NCBI RefSeq assembly: GCF_028369105.1
Contig: NZ_JAQNDO010000001.1
Coordinates: 7,162,501-7,226,500, forward strand
Direction of reading: 5' to 3'
DNA: 64,000 bases
DNA from: Polyangium mundeleinium
GTDB taxonomy: Bacteria > Myxococcota_A > Polyangia > Polyangiales > Polyangiaceae
Below, piece after piece: positions 6,981-55,218 of this stretch. The translations under genes were made by a program, and so were the position numbers. Within the stretch, counting starts at the first letter, position 1, and the number at the start of each line of letters is the position of its first letter. The notes under the pieces were generated by a model. The model was not told the origin of the DNA, ran no database searches, and worked only from the letters and a program-made list of their open reading frames with translations.

Positions 6981-8444
6981 TCACGCTCCCACGAAGGCCC
7001 GATTTGCCGCTTTTTCGAGTTGGAGAGCCTTCCAGCGGGTCTCTTCGAGCTCGCGGGCGGGGTCGGAGTCGGCGACGATGCCGCCGCCGGTGAAGTATTC
7101 GCCCTCGCGGCCCTGGAGCACGACGGTACGAATGGCCATGGCGAGGGTGACGCTGCCGTCGTGGGCGACGTGGCCGAAGCCGCCGGTGTAAAGGCCGCGG
7201 CGGGCGCTTTCGAGACGGGCGATGACCTCCATGGCGCGGACCTTGGGCGCGCCGGTGACGCTGCCGCTCGGGACCATGGCGGCGAGGACGTCGTGCCGGG
7301 TCGCGCCGGGCCGGGTCCACGCCCCGAGCAAGGCCTCGCGGTGGTGGATGGTTCTGTGCGTCACCACACCGGGCCCGTGGAGAACCTGAACCGAGCCCAC
7401 GGCCGCGACGCGACCGAGATCGTTACGCTCCACATCCACGATCATCGTGAGCTCCGCGTTTTCCTTGGGATCTTGATCGAGCTCCTGGACAAGCGCCGCG
7501 TCCTCGCGGGCGTCCTTTCCGCGAGGTCGTGTGCCCTTGATGGGACACGTGAACAATCGCCCGAAAGGCACCGAATTCAGAACGTGCCTTTGTCGTGAAT
7601 CCCCTCCCCGATCCGACCGTTTTTGATCCTCTCGCACGCTCGACGTGAAGGTTCGCATTCTATCCTGCGGAAACTCCATGCCTTCGGGCAATTGCCTCGT
7701 TCGGGCTTCGAGGAGCAGCTCTGGTGACGTGGACACGACGGCCAGATCACGACCGAGGTGCAGGCACGCGGCGAACGGGGACGGCGCGGCGGCGCTCAAG
7801 CGGCGGTGCAAATCGAGCGGCTCGCCCCGCACGAGCGAGACGAGGAGCCGTCGCGCCAGGTTGACCTGGTAAAGCTCCCCCCGGGCGATGAGCTCCTTGG
7901 CGGCGAGGATCCGCTCCAGGTGAAGCCGCGTCGGCTCCGCATCCGCGACCTCGACGGCGAACGCCCCCCGCCCCGCAGGCGCACGCGCCACGAGCAGGCG
8001 ACGCGCGAGCGCCTCGACGTGGCCCTGTGTGACGCCCACCGCAAACACGCGGCCCTCGGCATGGTCCACCACGACGACGGCCGGGTACCGGAGCCAGAGC
8101 GGCCGTTCGAGCATCGCCCGCGGCCGCCGATCTCCCTCGCGCGGTGTCCAGCCGGGGCGTTCGAGCTGCCGGTGCCCCTCGTACGGCAGCACGCCGATCC
8201 AGCGGGGCACGGACCGAAACGTGCCCGTCGCACCGCCGAACGGAAAGTCGGGGTCGTCGGCGAGTGGATCGAGGGCGCTCGACTGGCGGTCGGGATCACA
8301 CGCGACGTAGGAGAAGCGCGCGTAGGGGCCAGGGGTGCGATCGGCCGCGTGGAGCAGAGCGAGGCGGTCCGCGGCGGTTTCGCGGAGGCGATCGGCGAGG
8401 GCGATCGGATCGGGCGCGAGGGGGAGCTGTCGACCGACGAGCAC
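6981..8444 (-). CDS. pabB: Aminodeoxychorismate synthase component I (PabB type)
   Basis: A 487-residue chorismate-binding enzyme. The active-site motif is PIKGTRPRG with Lys303, which marks PabB; anthranilate synthase TrpE has Ala there. Other family blocks are present: ARGELYQVNLARRL, VDVERNDLGRV, VPSGSVTGAPKVRAME and YTGGFGHVAHDGS. The enzyme makes 4-amino-4-deoxychorismate for folate, normally with a glutaminase partner (PabA), which is not adjacent. GTG 8444 is preceded by AGGA 8 bases upstream. About 54 residues lie between the SPELLLE block and PIKGT, where I expect 10-15. This makes a ~40-residue, Arg/Ser-rich insert (residues ~247-297, DNA ~7545-7700) that is visibly less GC-rich than the rest. 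Confidence 0.85.
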   Translation of the reverse strand: MLVGRQLPLAPDPIALADRLRETAADRLALLHAADRTPGPYARFSYVACDPDRQSSALDPLADDPDFPFGGATGTFRSVPRWIGVLPYEGHRQLERPGWTPREGDRRPRAMLERPLWLRYPAVVVVDHAEGRVFAVGVTQGHVEALARRLLVARAPAGRGAFAVEVADAEPTRLHLERILAAKELIARGELYQVNLARRLLVSLVRGEPLDLHRRLSAAAPSPFAACLHLGRDLAVVSTSPELLLEARTRQLPEGMEFPQDRMRTFTSSVREDQKRSDRGGDSRQRHVLNSVPFGRLFTCPIKGTRPRGKDAREDAALVQELDQDPKENAELTMIVDVERNDLGRVAAVGSVQVLHGPGVVTHRTIHHREALLGAWTRPGATRHDVLAAMVPSGSVTGAPKVRAMEVIARLESARRGLYTGGFGHVAHDGSVTLAMAIRTVVLQGREGEYFTGGGIVADSDPARELEETRWKALQLEKAANRAFVGA

Positions 8445-15557: not shown

Positions 15558-15651
15558 ACGCTCCCAGGGCGCAGGCTGGCACGACGAACACTGAACATCA
15601 AGACAGGCGTGCCAGGCAGCGGAGGGCCGTGGCGGCACGGTTGCTTCCCGC

Positions 15652-15945
15652 GGCGGGGTCGTGTTCCGCAAGGGCGGGCTCGTGTCCCGCAACGGCGGGA
15701 GCGTGTTCCGCTACGGCGGGAGCGTGTTCCGCTACGGCGGGAGCGTGTTCCGCTACGGCGGGAGCGTGTTCCGCTACGGCGGGAGCGTGTTCCGCTACGG
15801 CGGGAGCGTGTTCCGCTACGGCGGGCTCGTGTCCCGCTACGGCGGGCTCATGTCCCGCTACGGCGGGCTCGTGTCCCGCTACGGCGGGCTCGTGTTCCGC
15901 TACGGCGGGCTCGTGTTCCGCTACGGCGGGCTCGTGTCCCGCTAC
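15652..15945. repeat. Tandem array of 14 units of 21 bp
   Basis: Fourteen head-to-tail 21-base units plus a partial one, consensus GGCGGGAGCGTGTTCCGCTAC. Units 3-8 are identical. The others carry the CTCGTGTC variant, and the first two end in AAG or AAC. Many units contain the small palindrome AGCG-TGTTC-CGCT. The array fills the gap between the 3' end of the lipoprotein gene (stop at 15961) and the start of the exonuclease gene, both on the minus strand. Read on the plus strand it gives a heptapeptide repeat (VFRYGGS), but that frame runs on antisense to a real gene. I therefore treat it as non-coding. Confidence 0.9.
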
Positions 15946-15960
15946 GGCGGGAGCGCACGC

Positions 15961-28811: not shown

Positions 28812-29063
28812 GGGTGAATCGGCCGGGCTCTGCCTGGCCGAGAGGGGGACGCGAGGCGTCCCCCTGAGGACCAGAGGTGAATCGGCCGGGCTCTGCCTGG
28901 CCGAGAGGGGGACGCGAGGCGTCCCCCTGAGGACCAGAGGTGAATCGGCCGGGCTCTGCCTGGCCGAGAGGGGGACGCGAGGCGTCCCTCTGAGGACCAG
29001 AGGTGAATCGGCCGGGCTCTGCCTGGCCGAGAGGGGGACGCGAGGCGTCCCTTTGAGGACCAG
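28812..29063. repeat. Four tandem 63-bp units, each with two hairpins
   Basis: Units start at 28812, 28875, 28938 and 29001. Each holds a near-perfect stem CGGCCGGGC-TCT-GCCTGGCCG (one G:T) and a stem AGGGGGACGC-GAG-GCGTCCCCCT. The first two units keep the second stem intact. Unit 3 ends in GCGTCCCTCT and unit 4 in GCGTCCCTTT, so the stem weakens step by step. The array separates the propeller lipoprotein gene (stop at 28764) from the CDP-alcohol phosphotransferase gene (start at 29082), both on the plus strand. It could attenuate read-through. No other content is seen in 28765-29081. Confidence 0.92.
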
Positions 29064-40026: not shown

Positions 40027-40205
40027 TGGGGCCGTCGCGCCGGGGCGCTGCCCCGGGCCCCGCGGGGGCTGTTCGCCCCTCGACCCGAACCAGGCGCGGC
40101 CTGGACCGAGGGTGGAAGAACTGCGCAATGCGCAGTTCTTCCAGCGGGCCGGTGGCAAGACCATGAAGGTGGGGTTCAAGCGGGCGACGGGGAGGTCGTC
40201 GACCT
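40027..40205. repeat. Dispersed composite palindromic repeat, copy C (left half only)
   Basis: It contains GCGCCGGGGCGCTGCCCCGG, the CCAGGC-GCG-GCCTGG palindrome and the 13-base hairpin at 40114-40142 (GGAAGAACTGCGC, loop AAT). The match to copy B continues to about 40205 and then stops; the right half is missing. It starts 49 bases after the stop of the histone-tail gene. The remainder of the gap, 40206-40592, is less GC-rich. I see no convincing gene there, only a short palindrome AGCTT-AAC-AAGCT at about 40563-40575, just before the ribosome site of the next gene. Confidence 0.85.
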
Positions 40206-42690: not shown

Positions 42691-43860
42691 ATGCGCTCCC
42701 TCGCTTTGCTCGTGCTCGGCCTCGCCCTCGCCGCTTGCGCCGACAGCCCCGCCCCTGATGCTGCCGCGCCGTCGCCTGGCCCCGGAGCGCCCGTCCACAC
42801 GCTGACATTGCCAGCGAGCTACGCGTCGTCGTCCGACGTGGTCGCTTACGCCGATCTCGCGAAGGGACAAGCGAAGGAAGAGACCGAATTGACCTACGCG
42901 CTGGCCGAAGGCTACCCGCGCGACGTGACGCTCGTGGCGAAGGGCGGCTTCGTCCTGTCGTCCGAGTGCTCGATTTCCCCTGGCCAGGTGGTCTGGCAGT
43001 CGATCACCGACGTGCAGGGGACGGCCGCAGGGGTCGACCTCGTGGGCGGCGCGCTCGCCATCGAGCTGCGGGAGGAGGGCACCGTGACCGTGCTCCTCGA
43101 AGGCGAGATCACCGGGCAGCATTGCCCCTCCGAGGATGGCTCGACGGCGACCGTGGTGCCGCTCCAGCACCGGCTCGTGCTGCACGTCGAGCGCGTCGCC
43201 GGCTTCGTGGTCGAGCAGCTTCACCAGCAACTGGCCGACTGCTGGAACACCATGGTGCTGCCGTCGGACGCGCCGCTGTGGGCGCCGACGGCACGCCCGC
43301 TCGATGCAACTGGAAAACCCTTTTCGCCGGTCAACGCGCCCGCGCCCGTGGCCCTCACGCTCCGGTCGAACGGAGACCTGACGCCTGGGCCTGGCTCCAC
43401 GGACCTGACCGCCGGCCCAGGCACGGTCACGGTGTCGGTCGACACGACGCTGCCGGTGCAGGGGATGCAGGCCTTCGAGGTGGTGGGCCCCGACGCGCTC
43501 ACGTCCGTCGAGGCCTCGTTCTACCTGCGCAAGGCCGCCCTCAAGGGCAATGTCTCCGAGCCCATCGAGGAAGGCACGTCGTATTCGCTCTTCCTCCCCG
43601 AGGAGAGCAACGGTGTCGACCTCCACGTCGATGCGGCGATGACGACCCTCGGAAAGCTCTGCGCGAACATGCCCCAGGCATGGTTCGCCTCGGCGTCGTC
43701 GACGCCCGCGCAATGCGAGGCGAGCGTGGGCGCCGTCGAGCCCTTCGCTTCCAGCATCCTCCCGGTGGCCGCAATCGGGGACGCCGGCGAGTGCCGGCTT
43801 TCGGTGACGATCCCGGGCACGGCGCAGCGCTGGACGACGCGATTCAGCATCACGCCGTGA
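42691..43860 (+). CDS. Secreted lipoprotein of unknown function
   Basis: A 389-residue lipoprotein: lipobox LGLALAACADSP, a Pro/Ala linker, then a mostly beta protein (VHTLTLPASYASSSDVVAYA, DLVGGALAIELREEGTVTVL, LVLHVERVAGFVVEQLHQQL, TLPVQGMQAFEVVGPDALTS). Four or five cysteines are widely spaced. No family recognised. It faces the LysR gene across 103 bases and may be regulated by it. Its 3' end overlaps by 11 bases the antisense remnant of a metal-binding-repeat protein. Confidence 0.75.
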   Translation: MRSLALLVLGLALAACADSPAPDAAAPSPGPGAPVHTLTLPASYASSSDVVAYADLAKGQAKEETELTYALAEGYPRDVTLVAKGGFVLSSECSISPGQVVWQSITDVQGTAAGVDLVGGALAIELREEGTVTVLLEGEITGQHCPSEDGSTATVVPLQHRLVLHVERVAGFVVEQLHQQLADCWNTMVLPSDAPLWAPTARPLDATGKPFSPVNAPAPVALTLRSNGDLTPGPGSTDLTAGPGTVTVSVDTTLPVQGMQAFEVVGPDALTSVEASFYLRKAALKGNVSEPIEEGTSYSLFLPEESNGVDLHVDAAMTTLGKLCANMPQAWFASASSTPAQCEASVGAVEPFASSILPVAAIGDAGECRLSVTIPGTAQRWTTRFSITP

Positions 43861-44032
43861 GCGCGCGGACGCTCGATCTCGATACGGGGTTGCAATCGTT
43901 GCAGTCGCCGTTCGCGAGGGTATAGCCATCCCCGTCGGCGTCGTCGTTGGGCCCAGGGACACAAGGCGGGCCGCCCCCGCTCCCGCTTCCGGGCTCTCCC
44001 GGAGCCAGCAGCGCATCCCCGGAGGGACACTC
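43850..44032 (-). pseudogene. C-terminal remnant of a DADGDGY/DCNDC repeat protein
   Basis: A 60-codon open stretch bounded by stops reads ECPSGDALLAPGEPG, then CVPGPNDDADGDGYTLANGD and CNDCNPVSRSS. The acidic D-x-D-x-DG-Y-xx-x-N-G-D-C-N-D-C block is the putative metal-binding motif found, often repeated, in large exported myxobacterial proteins. There is no start codon or signal peptide, so this is a fragment. It sits between the lipoprotein gene and the degenerate repeat array. Confidence 0.6.
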
Positions 44033-44480
44033 TCAACCCTCTCGGAGGACACCCTCGACCCTCCCCAACGACAGTCCCATCCTCCCGAACAACGCTCTCG
44101 TCCCTTTTCGATGACAGCGCCATCCCTCTCCAAGAGGCTCTCGACTCTCTCGGAGGATGCTCTCGTCCCTCCACTTGAATGTTATCCATCCTCTCCGAGA
44201 CCCTCCCGACCGCCGCTCGGGACCCCTCGTCACCATCCGGGACAGGGTTCTCCTTACCGCGAGGACCCTCTCGACCCTCTTGCATGACGGTCTCGGCCTT
44301 CCCCGGAGGTCCTGTCCTTCCTCCCCGAGACACCCGCGCTCCATCCGGAGGCGGCTCTCATCCCCCTCGAGGACGCTCCCAACCCTCTTGCAGGGGGGTC
44401 TCACCCTCCCGGAAGACACTCGCCTCTGTCTCTGGAGACCGTCTCACCCCTCCCGGAGACGGTCTCACCCCACCCGGCGA
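44021..44480. repeat. Degenerate 21-22 bp tandem array, about 20 units
   Basis: Consensus about GGACGCTCTCGACCCTCTCGGA on the plus strand. Unit lengths alternate between 20 and 23 bases, mostly 21 or 22, so no reading frame is kept and the array is not coding. Nearly every unit keeps a CTCTC(G/A)-N-CCCTC core with GGAGGA at the joint. It occupies most of the 767-base gap before the CHAT-DUF427 gene. The rest of the gap (44481-44627) contains the GAGGGGGCGAG ribosome site of that gene and nothing else recognised. Confidence 0.8.
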
Positions 44481-44627
44481 ACGGTCCTGCGTAGGAGTCG
44501 CCCCCCCTGCCCCCCACCTCGCGGCAGGGTCTTCCCCGGGCGGCTGGGGACGGTAGCATCCGCGTGAGGTATTGCCCCGTGCGCGGGACCAAGGCCAGCT
44601 GCACCCCCATCACGAGGGGGCGAGAAC

Positions 44628-46487
44628 ATGCTGAAGAGAGCACTCAAACTGATGAGCATGTTGGCAAGCCAAATACGACGCTTGCGACTCGAGTTTGCAA
44701 CATTCACCACGTCGTACTCCAAAAAACGCGCCCTCCGTCAACACAGGAAGGAAGCGGCGGGAGCGCCGGGCGCGCCTCGTCGGAGGAGCGTCGCCAGTCC
44801 TGACGGTCGTCGTGTCGTGAGAATATTGTTCCTCGGCGCCAATGGGATCGACACGTCACGACTGCAGATCGGCGCGGAGTTCCGGGACGTGCAGGTGGAG
44901 ATCGAGCGCGCGCGGGCGAGCCGCGAGATCGAGGTGCACGTCGAGCTCGCCGTCACGCCCGTGGATCTGAACCGGCTCTTGCTCGACTACGAACCGGATG
45001 TCGTGCACTTCAGCGGCCATGGCACGCTCGTCCGCGTCGGAAGACCTTTGCGGTCGGGCGGCGCAAGGGAGTTCGAGCCGCCCGACGAGGGGAGCACGAT
45101 GCAGAGCGCGCTCCTTCTCGAGACGCGGGGAGGTCTGTCGGCGCCCGTGTCGACCGAGGCCTTGGCGCGGCTCTTCGGGCTCCTGAGGACCCAGCGATGC
45201 GTCGTGCTCAACGCGTGTTTCAGCTCCGCCGAGGCCTCCGCGCTTGCCGCGCACGTCGACTGTCTGATCGGAATGCGACGAGCCATCGACGACGAATCGG
45301 CACTCGTGTTCGCGGTCGGATTCTACCAGGCCATCGCGCGTGGCCAGACGGTCAAGGCTGCCTTCGACCTCGGATGCAGCTTGATATCGACGTGTGGCCT
45401 CCCGGGCGCGGACGTGCCGCAGTTACGCGGACGCGTGGATCCAGATACCGTGCGGCTCGTCGACCCACAGGTGTCCACGGCGACGGCCCATCCTCTCCAG
45501 GTGTCGGATCTGCAGGTGATCCCGAACCCGGCCCAAGAGACGAGCACGCTCGATTTTCGCGTATACAACAGCGGAAACGAGAAGGTTCTCATCAATCGGG
45601 TCACGTTGCGAGTTCTCGAATGTCGCGAGCGCCCCGGCAGCAAGGGCTACCTGGAGTTCTCGAGAGAGTACGATCTGGACATCACCTCCCTCGAGAAGGC
45701 AGGAGACGTCATTTCGTGTAATGTCGCTCAGCTCGTCGGTCCACGAGACGTCGATCGATTTGGCATTCGACTGAGCGTGGACCTTCCCCTTCATAGCATT
45801 CGTTTCTGGAGGCTCCGACCCATGCTGTCGACGAACCACGGGCCGCTCGAAGGACCCGAGGTGAAGGTGTGGCTGCCGCCCACAAGCGAGGCGTTGTGTC
45901 GTCGTCTGGAAGAACAGTGGGAGGCAAGAATGATTCATTGGCGGAATGCGACTCCCGGATGCCTGGCCCAGTACCGGAACGCAATCGATGATCGCCACGT
46001 CGATCTGGCCCCGCTCATGGAGGTGCTCGAACGCGCCTACCCGGACATGAGCATTCGTCACCAGGTCCTTTCCGAATGGCTCGGTCCCCAATTCAGTGGC
46101 GGGTACTATGATCACGATATCTTACCCGTGCGCCTTCATTACGCGTCTCTCGTATCTCGTCACGTGCGTGTCGAGCCCTTGAAGCAGCCGCTACGAATCT
46201 CCGTGGGGCGAATCGAGATCGTGAACACCACTCGTGCGCTCGTGTTGCAAGAGGCGGGCGGCCCGCCTCGGTACTATGTCCCGCGGAAGGACGTGCAGGC
46301 CGAGCTGAAAGACAGCCGGGAAGGTCAAGCATGCATCCTCAAGGGGAGGTTGCATTACATCGACGTCACCGTCGGGCGCACGACGGTTCGAGAGGGAGCC
46401 TCAGCCTATCCTGGGTACAAACCCGTCCGTGATCACGTGGCATTTTTCCCGGAGAAGATGGCCTCGTTTGAGATCGGAGGAGGTTGA
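44628..46487 (+). CDS. CHAT caspase-like protease domain fused to a DUF427 domain
   Basis: A 619-residue protein. Residues 1-62 form a basic N-terminal helix and linker. Residues ~63-260 are a CHAT-type caspase-like domain: VRILFLGANGIDTSRLQIGA, DVVHFSGHG with the putative catalytic His131, CVVLNACFSSAEASALAAHV with Cys197, and FAVGFYQAIARGQTVKAAFD. Residues ~285-410 look like an immunoglobulin-type beta domain. Residues ~420-510 are helical with a Trp-rich segment and unassigned. Residues ~522-616 match DUF427: STRALVLQEAGG-type TTRALVLQEAGGPPRYYVPR, KDVQAEL, CILKGRLHYIDVTVG, and KPVRDHVAFFPEKM. There is no signal peptide, so it is cytoplasmic. ATG 44628 has GAGGGG 9 bases upstream. CHAT proteases cut partner proteins in bacterial immunity and signalling. 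No partner gene is adjacent, and the DUF427 role is unknown. Confidence 0.85.
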   Translation: MLKRALKLMSMLASQIRRLRLEFATFTTSYSKKRALRQHRKEAAGAPGAPRRRSVASPDGRRVVRILFLGANGIDTSRLQIGAEFRDVQVEIERARASREIEVHVELAVTPVDLNRLLLDYEPDVVHFSGHGTLVRVGRPLRSGGAREFEPPDEGSTMQSALLLETRGGLSAPVSTEALARLFGLLRTQRCVVLNACFSSAEASALAAHVDCLIGMRRAIDDESALVFAVGFYQAIARGQTVKAAFDLGCSLISTCGLPGADVPQLRGRVDPDTVRLVDPQVSTATAHPLQVSDLQVIPNPAQETSTLDFRVYNSGNEKVLINRVTLRVLECRERPGSKGYLEFSREYDLDITSLEKAGDVISCNVAQLVGPRDVDRFGIRLSVDLPLHSIRFWRLRPMLSTNHGPLEGPEVKVWLPPTSEALCRRLEEQWEARMIHWRNATPGCLAQYRNAIDDRHVDLAPLMEVLERAYPDMSIRHQVLSEWLGPQFSGGYYDHDILPVRLHYASLVSRHVRVEPLKQPLRISVGRIEIVNTTRALVLQEAGGPPRYYVPRKDVQAELKDSREGQACILKGRLHYIDVTVGRTTVREGASAYPGYKPVRDHVAFFPEKMASFEIGGG

Positions 46488-46519
46488 CAAGGTGGTGCCA
46501 CCGCGACGGACCTACACGT

Positions 46520-46990
46520 TCAGGGGCAAGACGCTTGCTCCATCCAGTCGCCGACGGGGCCTTGATCCTCGATGGTGCCACTCGGCCCCATGTCGTAGAT
46601 GTGCTTGTCGATGGAGTTTCCGCTGGACCACGCGGCGCCCAGATGGCTATGGGTCCCCGGATCGGGGCGATAGGTGTACGGGGCCGAGAAGAGCAGGACA
46701 CCCGGAGCGGGCGGAGAAAAGAGGGTTGGATACTGGATTTCCGCCAATCGAATACGCAGGAGATCTGCGCGATCGGTGAGGACGAGGGCGGAGGATGCCG
46801 GCGAGGGTATACGGGCTGGTGTTTCCGAACGAACTCGCGTCGAGGAGGATGTTGCGGTTCGCTCGGGTGGTGCTCGGAAAGAAGGCGCCGCCGCCGGAAT
46901 GGTCGAGCCGCTGGCGCTGCTCGACACGATGATTGCGGCGGCGCCGGGCCCGACGCCCGCGCTTTTGGCCTCAGGCGGGATGGGGCGCGT
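46520..46990 (-). pseudogene. Degenerate exported-protein gene, 3' part
   Basis: The minus strand codes, in the last frame, for RADLLRIRLAEIQYPTLFSP, GVLLFSAPYTYRPDPGTHSH and SSGNSIDKHIYDMGPSGTIE, ending WMEQASCP and a stop at 46520. The upstream part continues better in another frame (SGGGAFFPSTTRANRNILLD, ASSFGNTSPYTLAGI). At least one frameshift near 46800 is needed, and no start codon is obvious. Probably an exported beta protein that has decayed, or two base-call errors. Confidence 0.5.
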
Positions 46991-46999
46991 CCGACTCGC

Positions 47000-47247
47000 T
47001 CACTGGTAACATCCGAGAAACTTGCCGCTGAGGCTGCTCCAGTAGCAGCAAAACTCGTTGCCGCTGGGCGTCGCCACGCAGATGGTTTCCATGTCGGGGC
47101 CTCGCCGCCATCGCCGGCGAACTCCACGTCGCTCTCGATCCCGTCGCCGCCGACGGGATCGAGCCCCTGTGAGCCGCAGCCGACCCCGGCAACCGAGAGC
47201 GCCAAGGCCATGACCATGTTCATCGTTTGCTGAAAACCACGCTTCAT
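47000..47247 (-). pseudogene. Small lipoprotein gene with a one-base frameshift
   Basis: It starts at ATG 47247 with a full signal and lipobox (MALALSVAGVGCGSQG) and an acidic Gly-rich linker. At about 47092 the frame must shift by one missing base to reach ETICVATPSGNEFCCYWSSL, SGKFLGCYQ and a stop at 47000. With that base restored it would be an ~83-residue Cys-containing lipoprotein. The shift is next to a GGGG run, so a base-calling error is possible. The gap 47248-47526 up to the padR promoter holds nothing recognised. Confidence 0.55.
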
Positions 47248-47526
47248 TTCAACGATGGTTGGATGTTGACGCGACGCCTGCCGCGGGGTTCGGCGTCGCT
47301 TCGTCTCACGGCTTCGGGTATCAGCAACGGACGTGCCACCGCCGCGAGCACCGCTGTACGCAGCGGCGACGACGCGTACTTCATCACCACAGCGGCGATC
47401 TTGCGGGGCCCCTGCCTGCCCGCGTCTCCACGAGCGGACTCCGTCACGGACTCCGGTCCGCTCCAGTGGACGCGCAGCGAAGGTACGCAACGGCGGTGGG
47501 GTTGGATGGGTCGACGGCCCCGTACG

Positions 47527-47563
47527 TTGACACATACATCGTCGGACGATATATCGTCGGACG
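47527..47563 (+). promoter_or_regulatory. padR promoter with overlapping direct-repeat operator
   Basis: A perfect -35 TTGACA (47527-47532), 17-base spacer and -10 TATATC (47550-47555). Two copies of the 11-base direct repeat ATCGTCGGACG lie at 47538-47548 and 47553-47563, one in the spacer and one over the -10 and the expected start site. CGTACG flanks both ends (47521, 47562), and CGATATATCG is centred on the -10. The placement would block RNA polymerase, as in PadR autoregulation. Confidence 0.7.
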
Positions 47564-47587
47564 TACGAAGCGAGAGGCAGCCATCCC

Positions 47588-47899
47588 TTGCAAGACGCGA
47601 GCTACTACATCCTCATCTCGCTCGCCGCCGGGCCGCGACACGGCTACGGCATCCTCCAGGACGTCGCGGAGCTGTGCGGCGAGCCAAACGCCCTCGGGGC
47701 TGGCACGCTCTACGGCGCGCTCGAGCGCTTCAGCGACGACGAGCTCATCGAAATCGAGCGAGAGACCATCGAGCGGGGCCGCCCGCGGCGTTATTACCGG
47801 CTCACCCACAAGGGCCGCAAGGTGCTGGAGGAGGAGACGGCGCGCCGCGCCGCGCTGATCAAGGTCGCGCAGAAGCGCCTCCGCGCGAGGACGACGTGA
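47588..47899 (+). CDS. PadR-family transcriptional regulator
   Basis: A 103-residue PadR regulator with the compact winged helix and C-terminal dimer helix: SYYILISLAAGPRHGYGILQ, ELCGEPNALGAGTLYGALER, FSDDELIEIERETIERGRPR, RYYRLTHKGRKVLEEETARR. The start is TTG 47588 with AGAGG upstream; no in-frame ATG exists. Its stop overlaps the start of the membrane-protein gene downstream. PadR genes typically sit before a permease-like partner that they repress together with themselves. The operator is described at 47527. Confidence 0.92.
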   Translation: MQDASYYILISLAAGPRHGYGILQDVAELCGEPNALGAGTLYGALERFSDDELIEIERETIERGRPRRYYRLTHKGRKVLEEETARRAALIKVAQKRLRARTT

Positions 47900-48835
47900 G
47901 CCCGCTCGAGCGCAGGTACCGCGTGCTCGTCTCGCTCTTCCCACGGGCGCACCGCGCGCGCTGGGGTGAAGACCTCGTCGCGACGCTCCTCGACGCGGCC
48001 CCTGAAGGGCGCTCCTTTCCCACGCCGCGCGAGGCGCTCGACCTCACCCTGGCCGCCGCGCGGGCGCACGCGCAGGAGCCCGCGCGGCGCCCGTTCGCGG
48101 AGGTGCTGCGTGGAGGCGTGCTGCTCGGCGCGTTTCTGCTCGCGGCGCTGCGCCTCGGCGCTTCGCTTCGCTTCGCTGGACGCGCGGCTGCGTGGGACGC
48201 ATCGTTTACCTCGACTCTTTTCGCACCGATTGGCACCTCTATCGCGCTGGACTTTGCTGCGTGGAGTCTCTGTTCCTGGCGATGTTCGTGGTCGCGCTCT
48301 TCTCCGCGCGGCGGGCGCTCGCCATCACGGCCGCGCTGCTCCTCGCGCTCAGCTATGCAGCTCCGGACGGGCTGTACGTCAACGTGGCCCGGGCGCTCAA
48401 CAGCGTGCTGCCGCTCGTCCTCGCCGCAGGCCTCGTACGCTCACCGCCGGCGCTCCCACGGCCAGCGCTCGTGGTCATGCTCCCGCCGCTCATCGTGCTG
48501 GGCGCGTACCCGATGGAGTGGCTGCACCAAGACTTGCACGGCGGCGACATCAGGTCTTCGGCGCTTTTGATCCTCCTCGGGCTCGGCACGTCGCTGGTCG
48601 CGGCGGCGCTGCTTCGCGTGCTCGATGCCCGCTGGCTCATCGTGCCCGCGGTCTATCTCGGCGAGGTCTGCCTCTATGGGATCATCCGTACGCTCGCCCA
48701 TGAGCGCCTCACACCGTGGTGGCTTGTGAGGCTGATCGTGTCTTGGTCCCGGTGGCCTTCTTCGTCGGGTGCGCGTGGGCGCATTGGCGGCTTCGACAAC
48801 GTCCTCCCCCCCCTTCACCGACAGCGGACGCGTAG
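47896..48835 (+). pseudogene. PadR-partner membrane protein with two one-base frameshifts
   Basis: It starts at GTG 47896 overlapping padR, with an N-terminal segment typical of PadR partners (SPLERRYRVLVSLFPRAHRA, RWGEDLVATLLDAAPEGRSF) and then several membrane helices. The frame shifts once between 48190 and 48275 (to SLFLAMFVVALFSARRALAI, LIVLGAYPMEWLHQDL). It shifts again near 48735 to VLVPVAFFVGCAWAHWRLRQ, ending at 48835. Both shifts correspond to one missing base. Either a decayed gene or local base-call errors; with both bases restored it would encode ~314 residues. Confidence 0.65.
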
Positions 48836-48879
48836 CGGCCCTGCAACATGCCGACCCGAACCTATGACCTGATGACCTG

Positions 48880-50087
48880 ATGACGAGAACGGGCGTCGAA
48901 CACGCAATCCCCCGGCGCGGCGTGTTTTGCCTGGCGATGCTCGTGCTCGCCGCGTGCGGGCGAGAGCCGGCGCCTGTGCCGGCCACGATGCCGGCCGTGT
49001 CGGTCACGATTCCGGCGTCGTCCGGCGCTGCAAGTGAGGTCGAAGTGGCTCCAAGCAAAAGCTCGGTCGCAGCGCCGCCCGCCATTCTCGTCGGCCGCGC
49101 GGTCGTCGACGTGGCCGGGCGCTCCGTCGTCCGCACGTTGACGGAGGACGCCTTCGGCGCCGGCGCGACGTACGGATCCACGGCGTATCTCTGCGTCGGT
49201 CGCTGGTCGGGGCCGTCGAGGGACGAGAGGCTTCAAGAGCTGCGCGCGTACAACCTCGCGACGGGCAAGCTGCGCTGTTCGAAGCCGGTGGCGTATTGCC
49301 GCAGCATCGCCGCAGGCGCGGCGGGCGTGCTCCTCGGCCGGTACAGCGGCGGAGCGCAGGGCGCGACCTTTTACGATGGCGCCAAAGGCACGCCTCGCGA
49401 GGTGGCCCCGGGGCCGGCCGTCGTCGCCGTGCACCCGTTCGGCACGGGGTTCGTCGCGTTGCACGAAAATGGTGTGCTCGACGCGCTGGACGGCGAGAGC
49501 CTCGCGGTTCGCGGAACGGTGAAGCTCCCCTTCGTTCCAGGGCCTTTCGAGCTCGGCGCGTCGTTCGTCGAGCGCGACGCGCTCGCTGGGTCGTCGCCGC
49601 GACGAGCCAGGGGAGCCCGCGCAGCCTCGTGCTCGATCTCGCCGCCGGCAAGGTCGCCGCGCGGATCGACGCCGAGGTGGTTGCGACGGTGCGCAACGAA
49701 GCCGGCGAGCTCGATAGGCTCCTCGTCACGAGGCCGTCCACGCAGCTCCTCGATCGCAGCGGCCGCGTGCAATGGACCTCGCCCGAGCCCCTGGGAGAAG
49801 CCGCGAGCGCTTTGAGCAAGGATGGGATGATCTTCGTGGCCTCGTACGCCCGGATGTCGACCGGCGCCTCGCTCGTCGCGTTCGACGGGAAAACGGGCGC
49901 CGTGCGCTGGCGTGGGGATCTAAAGCTCGCGCAGGACATCGAGCACAGCCGCTACCACAACCACGTCGAGCTCGACTTCGATCACGGCGACCTCGCGATT
50001 CGAGGCCAGGAATCGTCGCAAGCGTACTTCGAGCTCTTCGCGCCGGCGGACGGCGCCCCCCTCTTCCGCGTCGTGCAGAAGCAATGA
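48880..50087 (+). pseudogene. Lipoprotein with beta-propeller-like domain, one frameshift
   Basis: The lipobox is in LAMLVLAACGREP, followed by a Pro/Ser/Val-rich linker and WD40/PQQ-like beta units (VHPFGTGFVALHENGVLDAL, DGESLAVRGTVKLPFVPGPF). At about 49580 one base is missing, and the protein continues in the next frame (WVVAATSQGSPRSLVLDLAA, MIFVASYARMSTGASLVAFD, GKTGAVRWRGDLKLAQDIEH, LAIRGQESSQAYFELFAPAD) to the stop at 50087. The restored product would be ~402 residues. The FDGKTGAVRW repeat marks a PQQ-type propeller. Confidence 0.7.
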
Positions 50088-50151
50088 TGCCTCCGGGTGG
50101 CGCTGATTCTTTGCCTCCGCCGACCCTCGAAGCCTATGGCCATCGAACCTC

Positions 50152-50724
50152 ATGCAGCTCCGCGCTCTGCTCTCCTTCGCCGCGTTGGCCCTGTCAGGCC
50201 TCGCGACCCTGCCCGGCGCCCAGCGCGGGCTTGTTCGATGGACAGAGCACCCTCCTCCCCGAGATTGTGTTGTCTCGATGAGCGTCCTGCAGGTTCTCCG
50301 AGCACAGCGCGGAGGTGCGCGTAGGATGGATGCACCCTTCGAGGTCCGCGCGTCCTTCGTGCTCGGCGCCGCCAGCGTGGGGGCCGTGGGGGTCGTCACC
50401 GTCGGCGCATGGATCGTCGGCGCGACCGCCGGGGCCGACGTCGTCGGGTTTTGCCGGACCTCGCTCGCCTCGTCGACGGTGCTCGCATTCTTCCTGCTGC
50501 GCCTCCTGACGTTGCTGGGCGCGGTCGTGGTGCCGCTCCTGCTCCTCGTCGGGCTCGCGCGCCACGGCGTGCGGAGGAGCCTCTTGCCCGGCCTCGTCTC
50601 GGCGGTTGTCCTGTGGCTGTACGTCGCGGGGGTGCTCCCGCAGGCGCCCCGGCACCCGTGCATGCGATCGGACGCCACGCCACCCGGCGACGCGGCGCAG
50701 AGGTCGGGTGTGCGGCCGGCGTGA
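50152..50724 (+). CDS. Small membrane protein of unknown function
   Basis: 190 residues with two or three hydrophobic helices in the second half (FVLGAASVGAVGVVTVGAWI, VLAFFLLRLLTLLGAVVVPL, LVSAVVLWLYVAGVL). The first ~60 residues contain a signal-like helix and then a hydrophilic Arg-rich stretch that does not look like a folded protein, so the true start may be ATG 50326 (MDAPFEVRASF). The gene follows the frameshifted lipoprotein by 65 bases. No family recognised; confidence is low for the 5' part. Confidence 0.45.
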   Translation: MQLRALLSFAALALSGLATLPGAQRGLVRWTEHPPPRDCVVSMSVLQVLRAQRGGARRMDAPFEVRASFVLGAASVGAVGVVTVGAWIVGATAGADVVGFCRTSLASSTVLAFFLLRLLTLLGAVVVPLLLLVGLARHGVRRSLLPGLVSAVVLWLYVAGVLPQAPRHPCMRSDATPPGDAAQRSGVRPA

Positions 50725-50861
50725 GGTGAGCTGCGCGAGAGGGAGGCACCACGGGCGAGGCAAGCATCCCACCGGAGGCGCGCCGAAGGACAAGGACCGG
50801 GTGGACCCGTGTCCGCGTCGGTCCCTCCATCGCCATGGTTGAGGGGGCGGAGGCGGGCGCT

Positions 50862-53922: not shown

Positions 53923-55218
53923 ATGCGAGCCATCCGTCCTCTCCGGATCGTGCCCTGGCGCAGCGGTCGCCGCCCTGTCGGGTCCGCGCTGCTCGGGGTG
54001 GCGCTCGCGCTGAGGACGGGCCTCGCCCTCGGTGAGGAGCCGAAGAGCGCCGGCCCCGCGGTCGACGACGCGGCAGCGCAGCCCGTGCTCGTGCTGCTCG
54101 TCGCGAAGGGCGTGCGCTCGCCGCTCGAGGAGCGCGCCGTGACGCTCGTCGCCGCGCACGTCCGCTCTGCGGGCGTGACGTTGAAGCAGGTCGAGCGCCC
54201 TGCGAGCTCCTCCGCTACGGGCGACCGCATCGCCGACGCGCGTGCGGTCGCGAACGACGAGGGCACGAAGGGGGTGCTCTGGGTGGAGATCGGGCCACAG
54301 GACGAGCTCGTCCTCCATCTCCTCGAGAAGGAAGGGGGGCGCGTGTTTCGCCGCGGCGTCCCCGCGCCCGCCGGCCAGACCTCCGCGGCGCTGGAGGCGC
54401 TCGCGAACATCGCCGGCTCGGCCGCGGCGGAGCTGGTCATCGAGGGGCACATCGTCACGATGACCTCCCTGGAGAGCGCCGACGCCGGGTCCTCTCCTGC
54501 GCCCGCCGCCGAGGCGGTCCCGGTTTCCGCGCCCCCTCCGGCTCCGCCGCCCCCTGAAACGAGGGCGCCTGCGCCCGTGCCTGCGCCTCGGGTGACGCCT
54601 CCTCCGGAGGCTCCCGCGCAGCCGAGCTTTCGGCGGCTGCTCCTCTCCGCGGGATATACGGGCGGCACCTTCGCGAGCGAGGCCTCCTGGCAGAGCGCCC
54701 TCGCGCTCTCTGCGTGGTGGGCGCCCGCGCCGAACGCGCGCGTCGGCCTCGGCTACGAGATGCTCTTCGAAGAGTACATCAAGGGATCGAGCTCCCCGCT
54801 CGACGTCGACCTGTCCCGTCATCCCATCGTCTTGAGCGGCGGATATCGCTTCCTCTTCGGCGGCCGCTGGGACGTCGATCTGGGCGCGCGTAGCACGGTC
54901 GACATCGTCGTCCGCGACCCGCACCCCGTTCCTCCTTCTGCGGCTCCTTCGCCCACGCCGTCGACGCCACCGCCGCTGCGGCATGCGGTCGACACGCTCG
55001 TGAGCGTCGCCCCCACGGTGGGCCTCGGCTTCCGGATCGTCGACCGGCTCCGCCTCGGCGCCTGGGCAGGCGTGGACGTGCCGCTGAACCGGCTCTCCAC
55101 GACGAACCAGCGCCGGATCGACCTCCAGATCGCCCCGGTGAGGTTCCTCGGCGGCCTCGAGTTCCAGGTGGAGCTGATCGAGCCCACGGTCCCGCGCCCT
55201 GTCCGGGCGGGGCGGTGA
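53923..55218 (+). CDS. Exported protein with predicted C-terminal beta-barrel
   Basis: A 431-residue protein from ATG 53923 (GGGGG upstream); an earlier in-frame ATG at 53824 gives no better signal. Signal peptide (GSALLGVALALRTGLALGEE), an alpha/beta domain at ~35-170 (AQPVLVLLVAKGVRSPLEER, GTKGVLWVEIGPQDELVLHL), a Pro/Ala-rich linker, then ~200 residues of alternating strands (FRRLLLSAGYTGGTFASEAS, ALALSAWWAPAPNARVGLGY, WDVDLGARSTVDIVVRDPHP) ending in an aromatic-containing strand. An outer-membrane barrel is the inferred form. It is directly upstream of the sigma and anti-sigma genes and likely in their transcript. Confidence 0.75.
   Translation: MRAIRPLRIVPWRSGRRPVGSALLGVALALRTGLALGEEPKSAGPAVDDAAAQPVLVLLVAKGVRSPLEERAVTLVAAHVRSAGVTLKQVERPASSSATGDRIADARAVANDEGTKGVLWVEIGPQDELVLHLLEKEGGRVFRRGVPAPAGQTSAALEALANIAGSAAAELVIEGHIVTMTSLESADAGSSPAPAAEAVPVSAPPPAPPPPETRAPAPVPAPRVTPPPEAPAQPSFRRLLLSAGYTGGTFASEASWQSALALSAWWAPAPNARVGLGYEMLFEEYIKGSSSPLDVDLSRHPIVLSGGYRFLFGGRWDVDLGARSTVDIVVRDPHPVPPSAAPSPTPSTPPPLRHAVDTLVSVAPTVGLGFRIVDRLRLGAWAGVDVPLNRLSTTNQRRIDLQIAPVRFLGGLEFQVELIEPTVPRPVRAGR

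Follow-up and report, generated by a model that had tools for sequence, protein, structure and literature searches.

Gene and domain layout

The window, by which we mean the whole 64,000-nucleotide stretch of Polyangium mundeleinium DNA that was analyzed, carries a gene whose product joins a CHAT caspase-like domain to a C-terminal DUF427 domain. The earlier note had called this gene intact, and it is a single open frame laid out as follows.

44628..46487, + strand: CHAT-beta-helical-DUF427 gene, 619 amino acids, ATG to TGA, zero internal stops
44811..45461, + strand: CHAT caspase-like domain, residues 62-278 (Pfam, PDB 8tl0_A, dyad)
45018-45020, + strand: His131 codon, within HFSGHG
45216-45218, + strand: Cys197 codon, within LNACFS
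45462..45872, + strand: beta-rich domain, residues 279-415, common to the G292 relative L049
45873..46142, + strand: front half of a helical module, residues 416-505, module positions 1-73 of 149
46100..46163, + strand: junction zone of truncated module and DUF427, where similarity to L049 and L052 fades and DUF427 similarity begins
46158..46484, + strand: DUF427 domain, residues 511-619, a diverged copy with a Pfam match

Both domain assignments made earlier were borne out by Pfam. CHAT (PF12770) matched at 45.1 bits against a cut-off of 24, with residues 34 to 245 aligned, and DUF427 (PF04248) matched at 56.4 bits against a cut-off of 22.1 over residues 523 to 608. The protein has no other Pfam family, the beta-rich part included, and an NCBIfam search of it matched zero families. 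Among sequences of solved structures, the best matches were 8tl0_A, a CHAT protein (residues 65 to 250, 2.4e-9) that we take to be a SAVED-CHAT protease, and 3djm_A, a DUF427 protein (residues 510 to 608, 1.9e-4). The generic CHAT model of PADLOC matched at 1.5e-6, and its SAVED-CHAT model matched weakly (0.0047, residues 187 to 255). The His131/Cys197 pair also stood up: the histidine was kept in 15/15 aligned segments that cover it and the cysteine in 14/14, the window's own included in both counts, in a comparison that left out 10 more distant CHAT loci of the same genome (L036-L045) that the alignment profile did not match.

Judged by sequence, the middle region (beta-rich at about 279 to 415, helical at about 416 to 505) is real, since a 62% identical relative has the same region. 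The folds of these two parts are predictions from sequence and from a low-confidence AlphaFold2 model of the single 619-residue sequence (mean pLDDT 36.7, pTM 0.23), which is also the source of the strands. The start codon is uncertain because a simple gene caller favors 44826 over 44628 and the first 61 residues, which look noncoding, are the least coding-like part of the frame (codon score of -0.21 per codon). A separate DUF427 start, the GTG at 46164, was considered and is unsupported, with no Shine-Dalgarno-like sequence upstream by eye.

Neighborhood and rearrangement

Two further features adjoin the gene.

43971..44554, no strand: block of degenerate 21-22 bp repeats lying upstream of the gene, with similar copies elsewhere
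46488..46888, - strand: inverted partial copy, 97-98% identical to the 3' end of a metalloprotease-like gene about 30 kb away

The metalloprotease-like fragment begins at the base directly after the CHAT-DUF427 stop codon and marks a rearrangement breakpoint beside it. Pfam at 0.01 gave no match for 16 of the 20 flanking ORFs, some of which overlap on opposite strands; the other four matched DUF3426, a LysR regulator, a sub-threshold PQQ_2, and a sigma factor. PADLOC at 0.001 gave zero matches in seven neighboring ORFs. The earlier note had described a neighborhood of many broken genes, and the inverted fragment and the unmatched ORFs are in line with that. Window positions 43877 to 50800 correspond to about 1.1 kb with another gene in genome G377, and the CHAT gene therefore lies in a variable segment.

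Several repeats were observed in and around such loci. One similar copy of the 21-22 bp block lies upstream of a CHAT gene with WD40 repeats (L051). A repeat of about 160 bp (window 40029-40192) is dispersed over the genus genomes, with more than 100 copies among the matches listed, at about 85-96% identity; its RNA form has a better predicted fold than most shuffled versions (z of -2.74, 4/200 as good), and an inverted pair of it lies upstream of the CHAT gene of genome G369 (L050:7242-7369 and 7428-7554). Tandem arrays with a period of 43 bp occur in 8 of the 21 genus loci checked.

L049:8725-9157, period-43 array
L052:7377-7680, period-43 array
L115:9486-9951, period-43 array
L118:6378-6738, period-43 array
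L120:9608-10042, period-43 array
L151:4234-4586, period-43 array
L152:9549-9827, period-43 array
L153:1343-1697, period-43 array

The units compared from three of them (L049, L052, and L118) differ in sequence and keep the period. We rejected these arrays as part of a CHAT system, with a CHAT gene or remnant in 3/8 of the loci and none in 5/8. Elsewhere in the window, a 63-bp unit is repeated four times at 28813-29063 (98% alike), and a 21-bp array of 14 copies at 15651-15951 overlaps the sole predicted tRNA (a Thr tRNA with anticodon cgt, at 15648-15741), so that this tRNA call may be spurious.

Relatives and distribution of the fusion

The closest relative of the window protein is L049 in genome G292, of the same genus. 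It is 62% identical over residues 62 to 488, including 84/135 identical residues in the beta-rich part. CHAT is its sole Pfam domain, DUF427 is absent, and PADLOC gave zero matches at 0.001. Other CHAT relatives are joined to regulatory parts, which supports the earlier interpretation in part. The third close CHAT (160/212 residues identical) is of the cyclase-AAA-TPR kind: a G369 protein (L050), 70% identical over residues 41 to 279, with AAA_16 and TPR repeats next to its cyclase domain. Both CHAT proteins scanned at about 40% identity (L051 and L055) have WD40 repeats, and a further one (L053) has a SAVED domain. L051 has its CHAT domain at the C terminus, and so an N-terminal position is not universal among the relatives. 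A short CHAT gene was also seen in G369 (L118:7062-7610). About 1.2 kb downstream of it lies the counterpart of window gene 53998-55218, which is followed in the window by a sigma-factor gene.

The P. mundeleinium genome (13.25 Mb in two contigs) has 13 CHAT matches and one DUF427 match, that in the CHAT-DUF427 gene. DUF427 matches were found in 0/5 other genomes of the genus and in 29/102 further genomes of the family. Across 377 genomes of the phylum, a full-length match to the protein was found in this genome alone, in a search that scored at most three candidates per genome and whose counts are thus lower bounds. When all candidates were scored within the genus, 5/6 genomes, this one included, had a match; outside this gene the matches were confined to the CHAT part and its vicinity, except that the one in G292 extended through the middle.

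We also looked for the fusion beyond the phylum. None of 143 matching plasmid records covers 80% of the protein, and the one phage record that matched did so in DUF427 alone. Two pattern-limited scans of an 84,980-species collection, with the protein and a two-row alignment as queries, gave 54 and 127 pattern matches and zero confirmed relatives, in a collection that may lack genomes closely related to the window. A scan of viral contigs gave 174 pattern matches and zero confirmed. These scans rest on few short peptides (two in the two-row-alignment and viral scans) and miss distant relatives. Within the phylum, the 43 other DUF427 loci, with flanks of at most 1.5 kb, had zero CHAT matches. 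In the literature searched, which leaves out most subscription papers and preprints, we found no paper that names both DUF427 and CHAT and none on CHAT with SAVED in myxobacteria; glutamine synthetase papers were set aside as DUF427 literature, their subject being DUF4278. Recurrence in unrelated genomes near defense genes, which the earlier note had named as support, was not seen in these searches. The fusion is one example, in one genome, of a kind of modular protein that is already known.

Exchange of the helical tail for DUF427

A broken paralogue in the same genome (L052, G000:C1 near 8984700) has a CHAT piece in one frame; in another frame its helical region runs on like that of the G292 protein and lacks DUF427. 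We made a profile of the helical module (149 positions) from five rows (L049, L052, L145, L146, and L147), which match it by construction. L049 covers positions 1-149 and L052 covers 35-149. The window protein contributed no row to the profile and covers positions 1-73 only. The end of the module match coincides with the onset of DUF427 similarity, so that in this lineage the entire coding sequence of DUF427 has taken the place of the back half of the module, in frame. The copy ends 2 residues before the stop codon, and 17/43 other copies end within four. The earlier note could assign neither part of the middle; the region itself holds as one common to the 62% identical relative, and the helical part proves to be half of a longer module. 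For a protein whose relatives have the same protease and other partners, the layout suggests a one-off swap of tails in a modular protein, probably of immune type. The sister genome gives a before-and-after view of how bacterial caspase-like proteases exchange tails.

The best reading, which we hold with moderate confidence, is a modular conflict-type CHAT protease with exchangeable partner domains and a swapped tail. Its ancestor would have had the order CHAT, beta-rich domain, and helical module, still complete in the sister genome, and the whole coding sequence of DUF427 (a beta-tent) has since replaced the back half of the module, in frame, in a rearranged, gene-poor spot. The CHAT domain would be a held-back cysteine protease, the tail would sense or dock a trigger and so release it, and CHAT, once free, would cleave either itself or a target protein, in the manner of other conflict-type CHAT proteins. 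Section 33 of PMC7159879 describes proteins whose N-terminal caspase domain is constant and whose C-terminal domain comes in up to 50 alternatives. With CHAT domains related to ours joined to cyclase-ATPase-TPR, WD40, or SAVED parts, partner exchange fits this published theme.

Live gene or decay

The main rival of this reading is one in which a rearranged, cut CHAT gene was joined by chance to a stray DUF427, giving a dead or dying chimera with no selected function, whose frame stays open because stops are rare in a GC-rich genome. It would then be a case of ordinary gene decay. The evidence from codons falls on both sides. Against the G292 relative, dN was 0.29 and dS 0.82 (NG86; residues 62 to 490, 422 aligned codons), and the beta-rich part alone gave a dN of 0.285 and a dS of 0.757, although such a comparison pools the time before and after the swap. 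All four segments (CHAT, beta-rich, helical, and DUF427) show GC periodicity (0.67/0.46/0.70 in the DUF427 part). Codon scores from CHAT on are 0.00-0.12 per codon, versus 0.12-0.38 in 14 other genes of the window; they are low in the G292 relative too.

The state of the DUF427 copy bears on the same question. We aligned it with 42 of the 43 other loci from the phylum, one having no match to the seed. Identity to the 42 copies is 19-38%. Cys569, Lys572, Gly573, Tyr577, and Tyr594 are retained, and two signature positions are lost: residue 592, the Trp of the AW.Y motif in 42/42 others, is Ser, and residue 571, the aromatic before the KG motif (Trp, Phe, or Tyr in 42/42 others), is Leu. At the positions conserved at 90%, it keeps 9/13, fewer than each of the 42 others; at those conserved at 70%, it keeps 16/23, and 8/42 others keep equally few. 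The copy is worn and diverged.

We regard the dead chimera as possible but doubtful. It would account for a junction that falls inside the helical module, a DUF427 with the fewest 90%-conserved positions, a near-identical gene fragment that begins at the base after the stop, a segment (43.9-50.8 kb) swapped for about 1.1 kb in G377, an own-genome paralogue that is already broken, low codon scores, and an uncertain start. It does less well with 619 stop-free codons, an intact dyad, codon periodicity from CHAT on, and a DUF427 that is complete to a natural-looking end and keeps 9/13 near-invariant positions at 19-38% overall identity. The earlier note had named a frame-joined artifact as a danger: DUF427 is indeed joined inside a domain, but the product is an open, codon-periodic frame. 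The self-contained system that it suggested is one possible reading; the partnerless state fits a decaying, rearranged spot equally well.

For the modular, swapped-tail protease, we count both domains above their cut-offs, a closest relative and a broken paralogue that lack DUF427, a module match that stops at position 73, CHAT relatives with other partners, dN below dS, GC periodicity, the natural-looking end, and the published theme of variable tails. Against it we count that there is a single example, so that selection on the joined form escapes measurement; that the swap cuts through the module and signature residues of DUF427 are lost, as expected of a decaying gene; and that codon scores are low, CHAT is C-terminal in L051, and the ORFs scanned hold no EACC1-like or PADLOC-listed neighbor.

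Possible roles of the tail and comparison with known systems

CHAT (PF12770) proteases include SAVED-CHAT and the TPR-CHAT/Csx29 of Craspase. The window protein shares with these a CHAT domain with a GHG...NAC dyad joined to another part. Unlike SAVED-CHAT, it has no SAVED domain by Pfam, and its tail is beta-rich, half of the helical module, and DUF427; unlike TPR-CHAT/Csx29, it has no TPR, and there is no Cas7-11 partner in the ORFs scanned. No nucleotide-cyclase or CRISPR partner was matched in the neighboring ORFs scanned. STAND-CHAT receptors differ in having an AAA/NACHT NTPase and a repeat sensor, both absent here, although the related L050 has AAA_16 and TPR.

DUF427 has been described as having a beta-tent fold, with no zinc site and no known function (PMC4287342). 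The copy here is like the family (PF04248) in being a whole domain (511 to 619) with a natural-looking C-terminal end and differs in being fused to CHAT, which is absent from the 43 other loci. The tail could in principle be a working sensor, the beta-tent binding a small molecule, a peptide, or an RNA end and switching CHAT on in a one-protein immune switch. The fold would suit this, being found also in the RIG-I C-terminal domain and the cereblon CULT domain, with no significant sequence similarity of DUF427 to either and with convergence possible (PMC4287342); the position at the tail, beside CHAT, suits a sensor as well. We nevertheless find it improbable. This copy has lost two residues that 42/42 others retain, the Trp at 592 and the aromatic at 571, which weakens the sensor role proposed earlier; we met no named ligand of DUF427 in the literature consulted; and no other DUF427 locus (0/43, flanks of at most 1.5 kb) has a CHAT match.

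The EACC1-caspase two-gene system (System 4 of PMC7159879) has, like the protein here, a constant N-terminal caspase-type domain and highly variable C-terminal domains. Self-cleavage with release of the effector has been proposed for it (PMC7159879), and section 33 of that paper does not name DUF427 as a tail. On this model for proteins with a constant caspase and variable tails (PMC7159879, section 33), CHAT would cleave itself and free DUF427 as the acting part. We consider that very improbable here, where the DUF427 copy is diverged and an EACC1-like partner was not found upstream. The upstream ORF 44157-44567 has zero Pfam matches, and no EACC1-type match came from the upstream ORFs scanned. 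Among 16 ORF frames of at least 40 amino acids in 43001-44640, none has a TM-like stretch such as the single-TM EACC1 protein of the 5' neighbor would show, with a 19-residue hydropathy of at most 1.46. As the defining partner was not found, we do not claim membership in the EACC1-caspase system.

The helical module and RHS-PAAR loci

The helical module was found in 13/317 genomes of the class, this one included, with at most 12 candidates scored per genome. Outside CHAT proteins it occurs at 14 places, in proteins mostly of about 300-620 amino acids. RHS and/or toxin-PAAR homologues were present in 10/14 of these loci versus 0/23 control loci, with an RHS query that was taken from L146, which matches by construction (9/13 without it), and that missed the RHS-repeat protein that Pfam finds in control locus L115. 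Because the 23 controls came mostly from other genomes, we took as further controls twenty 14-kb stretches, placed at round coordinates, in four module-bearing genomes. The result was 0/20 versus 6/7 module loci in the same four genomes (Fisher p of 2.4e-5, which overstates independence because the module loci are related by descent). With the Pfam model, these four genomes have 71 toxin-PAAR matches over about 55 Mb (roughly 0.02 for each 14 kb), for a chance expectation of about one 14-kb stretch in 55; the same 6/7 module loci contain a match. Most of the PAAR matches (65/71) lie outside module loci, and the module is thus not a general partner. RHS was not seen in the other 4/14 module loci (L145, L149, L172, and L174, of which L149 is a 3-kb contig).

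Six loci encode an RHS-PAAR protein of about 1400 amino acids next to a module protein of 548-597 amino acids.

L146:2351-8250, RHS-PAAR and module protein
L147:1889-7782, RHS-PAAR and module protein
L171:5740-11741, RHS-PAAR and module protein
L177:2107-7965, RHS-PAAR and module protein
L179:367-6201, RHS-PAAR and module protein
L150:1582-7504, RHS-PAAR and module protein, convergent genes

By the gene calls, the module protein in L146, L147, L171, L177, and L179 starts within about 31 bases of the end of the RHS gene, a spot that is the usual place of immunity or partner genes. The two module proteins scanned (L146 and L150) had zero Pfam matches, and we found no family name for proteins of this group. 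The RHS-linked proteins are like the window protein in the helical module (W..A.P...LLEWLG...G.W) and unlike it in having no CHAT, another N-terminal domain, and a mostly longer C-terminal part. We claim no link between the beta-rich domain and the N-terminal domain of these proteins, as a profile comparison aligned the helical part alone.

A speculative extension, which we consider unlikely, is that the CHAT proteases of the genus, through the module that they have in common with the partners of RHS-PAAR genes, are decoy sensors: an RHS effector, incoming or mis-handled, would dock on the module and unleash the protease, and here the back half of the decoy would have been swapped for the DUF427 beta-tent as a new input. 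With the L146 query, neither the window nor the surroundings of the G292 gene gave an RHS or PAAR homologue. If the decoy reading were true, it would tie contact-dependent warfare to a suicide response. If the module senses RHS proteins, CHAT proteases would be tied to toxin-based competition and DUF427 would gain a testable context. The link between the module and RHS-PAAR may be a more general result than the CHAT-DUF427 fusion. In G377, another RHS-repeat protein lies about 6 kb from the site where the window has the CHAT gene.
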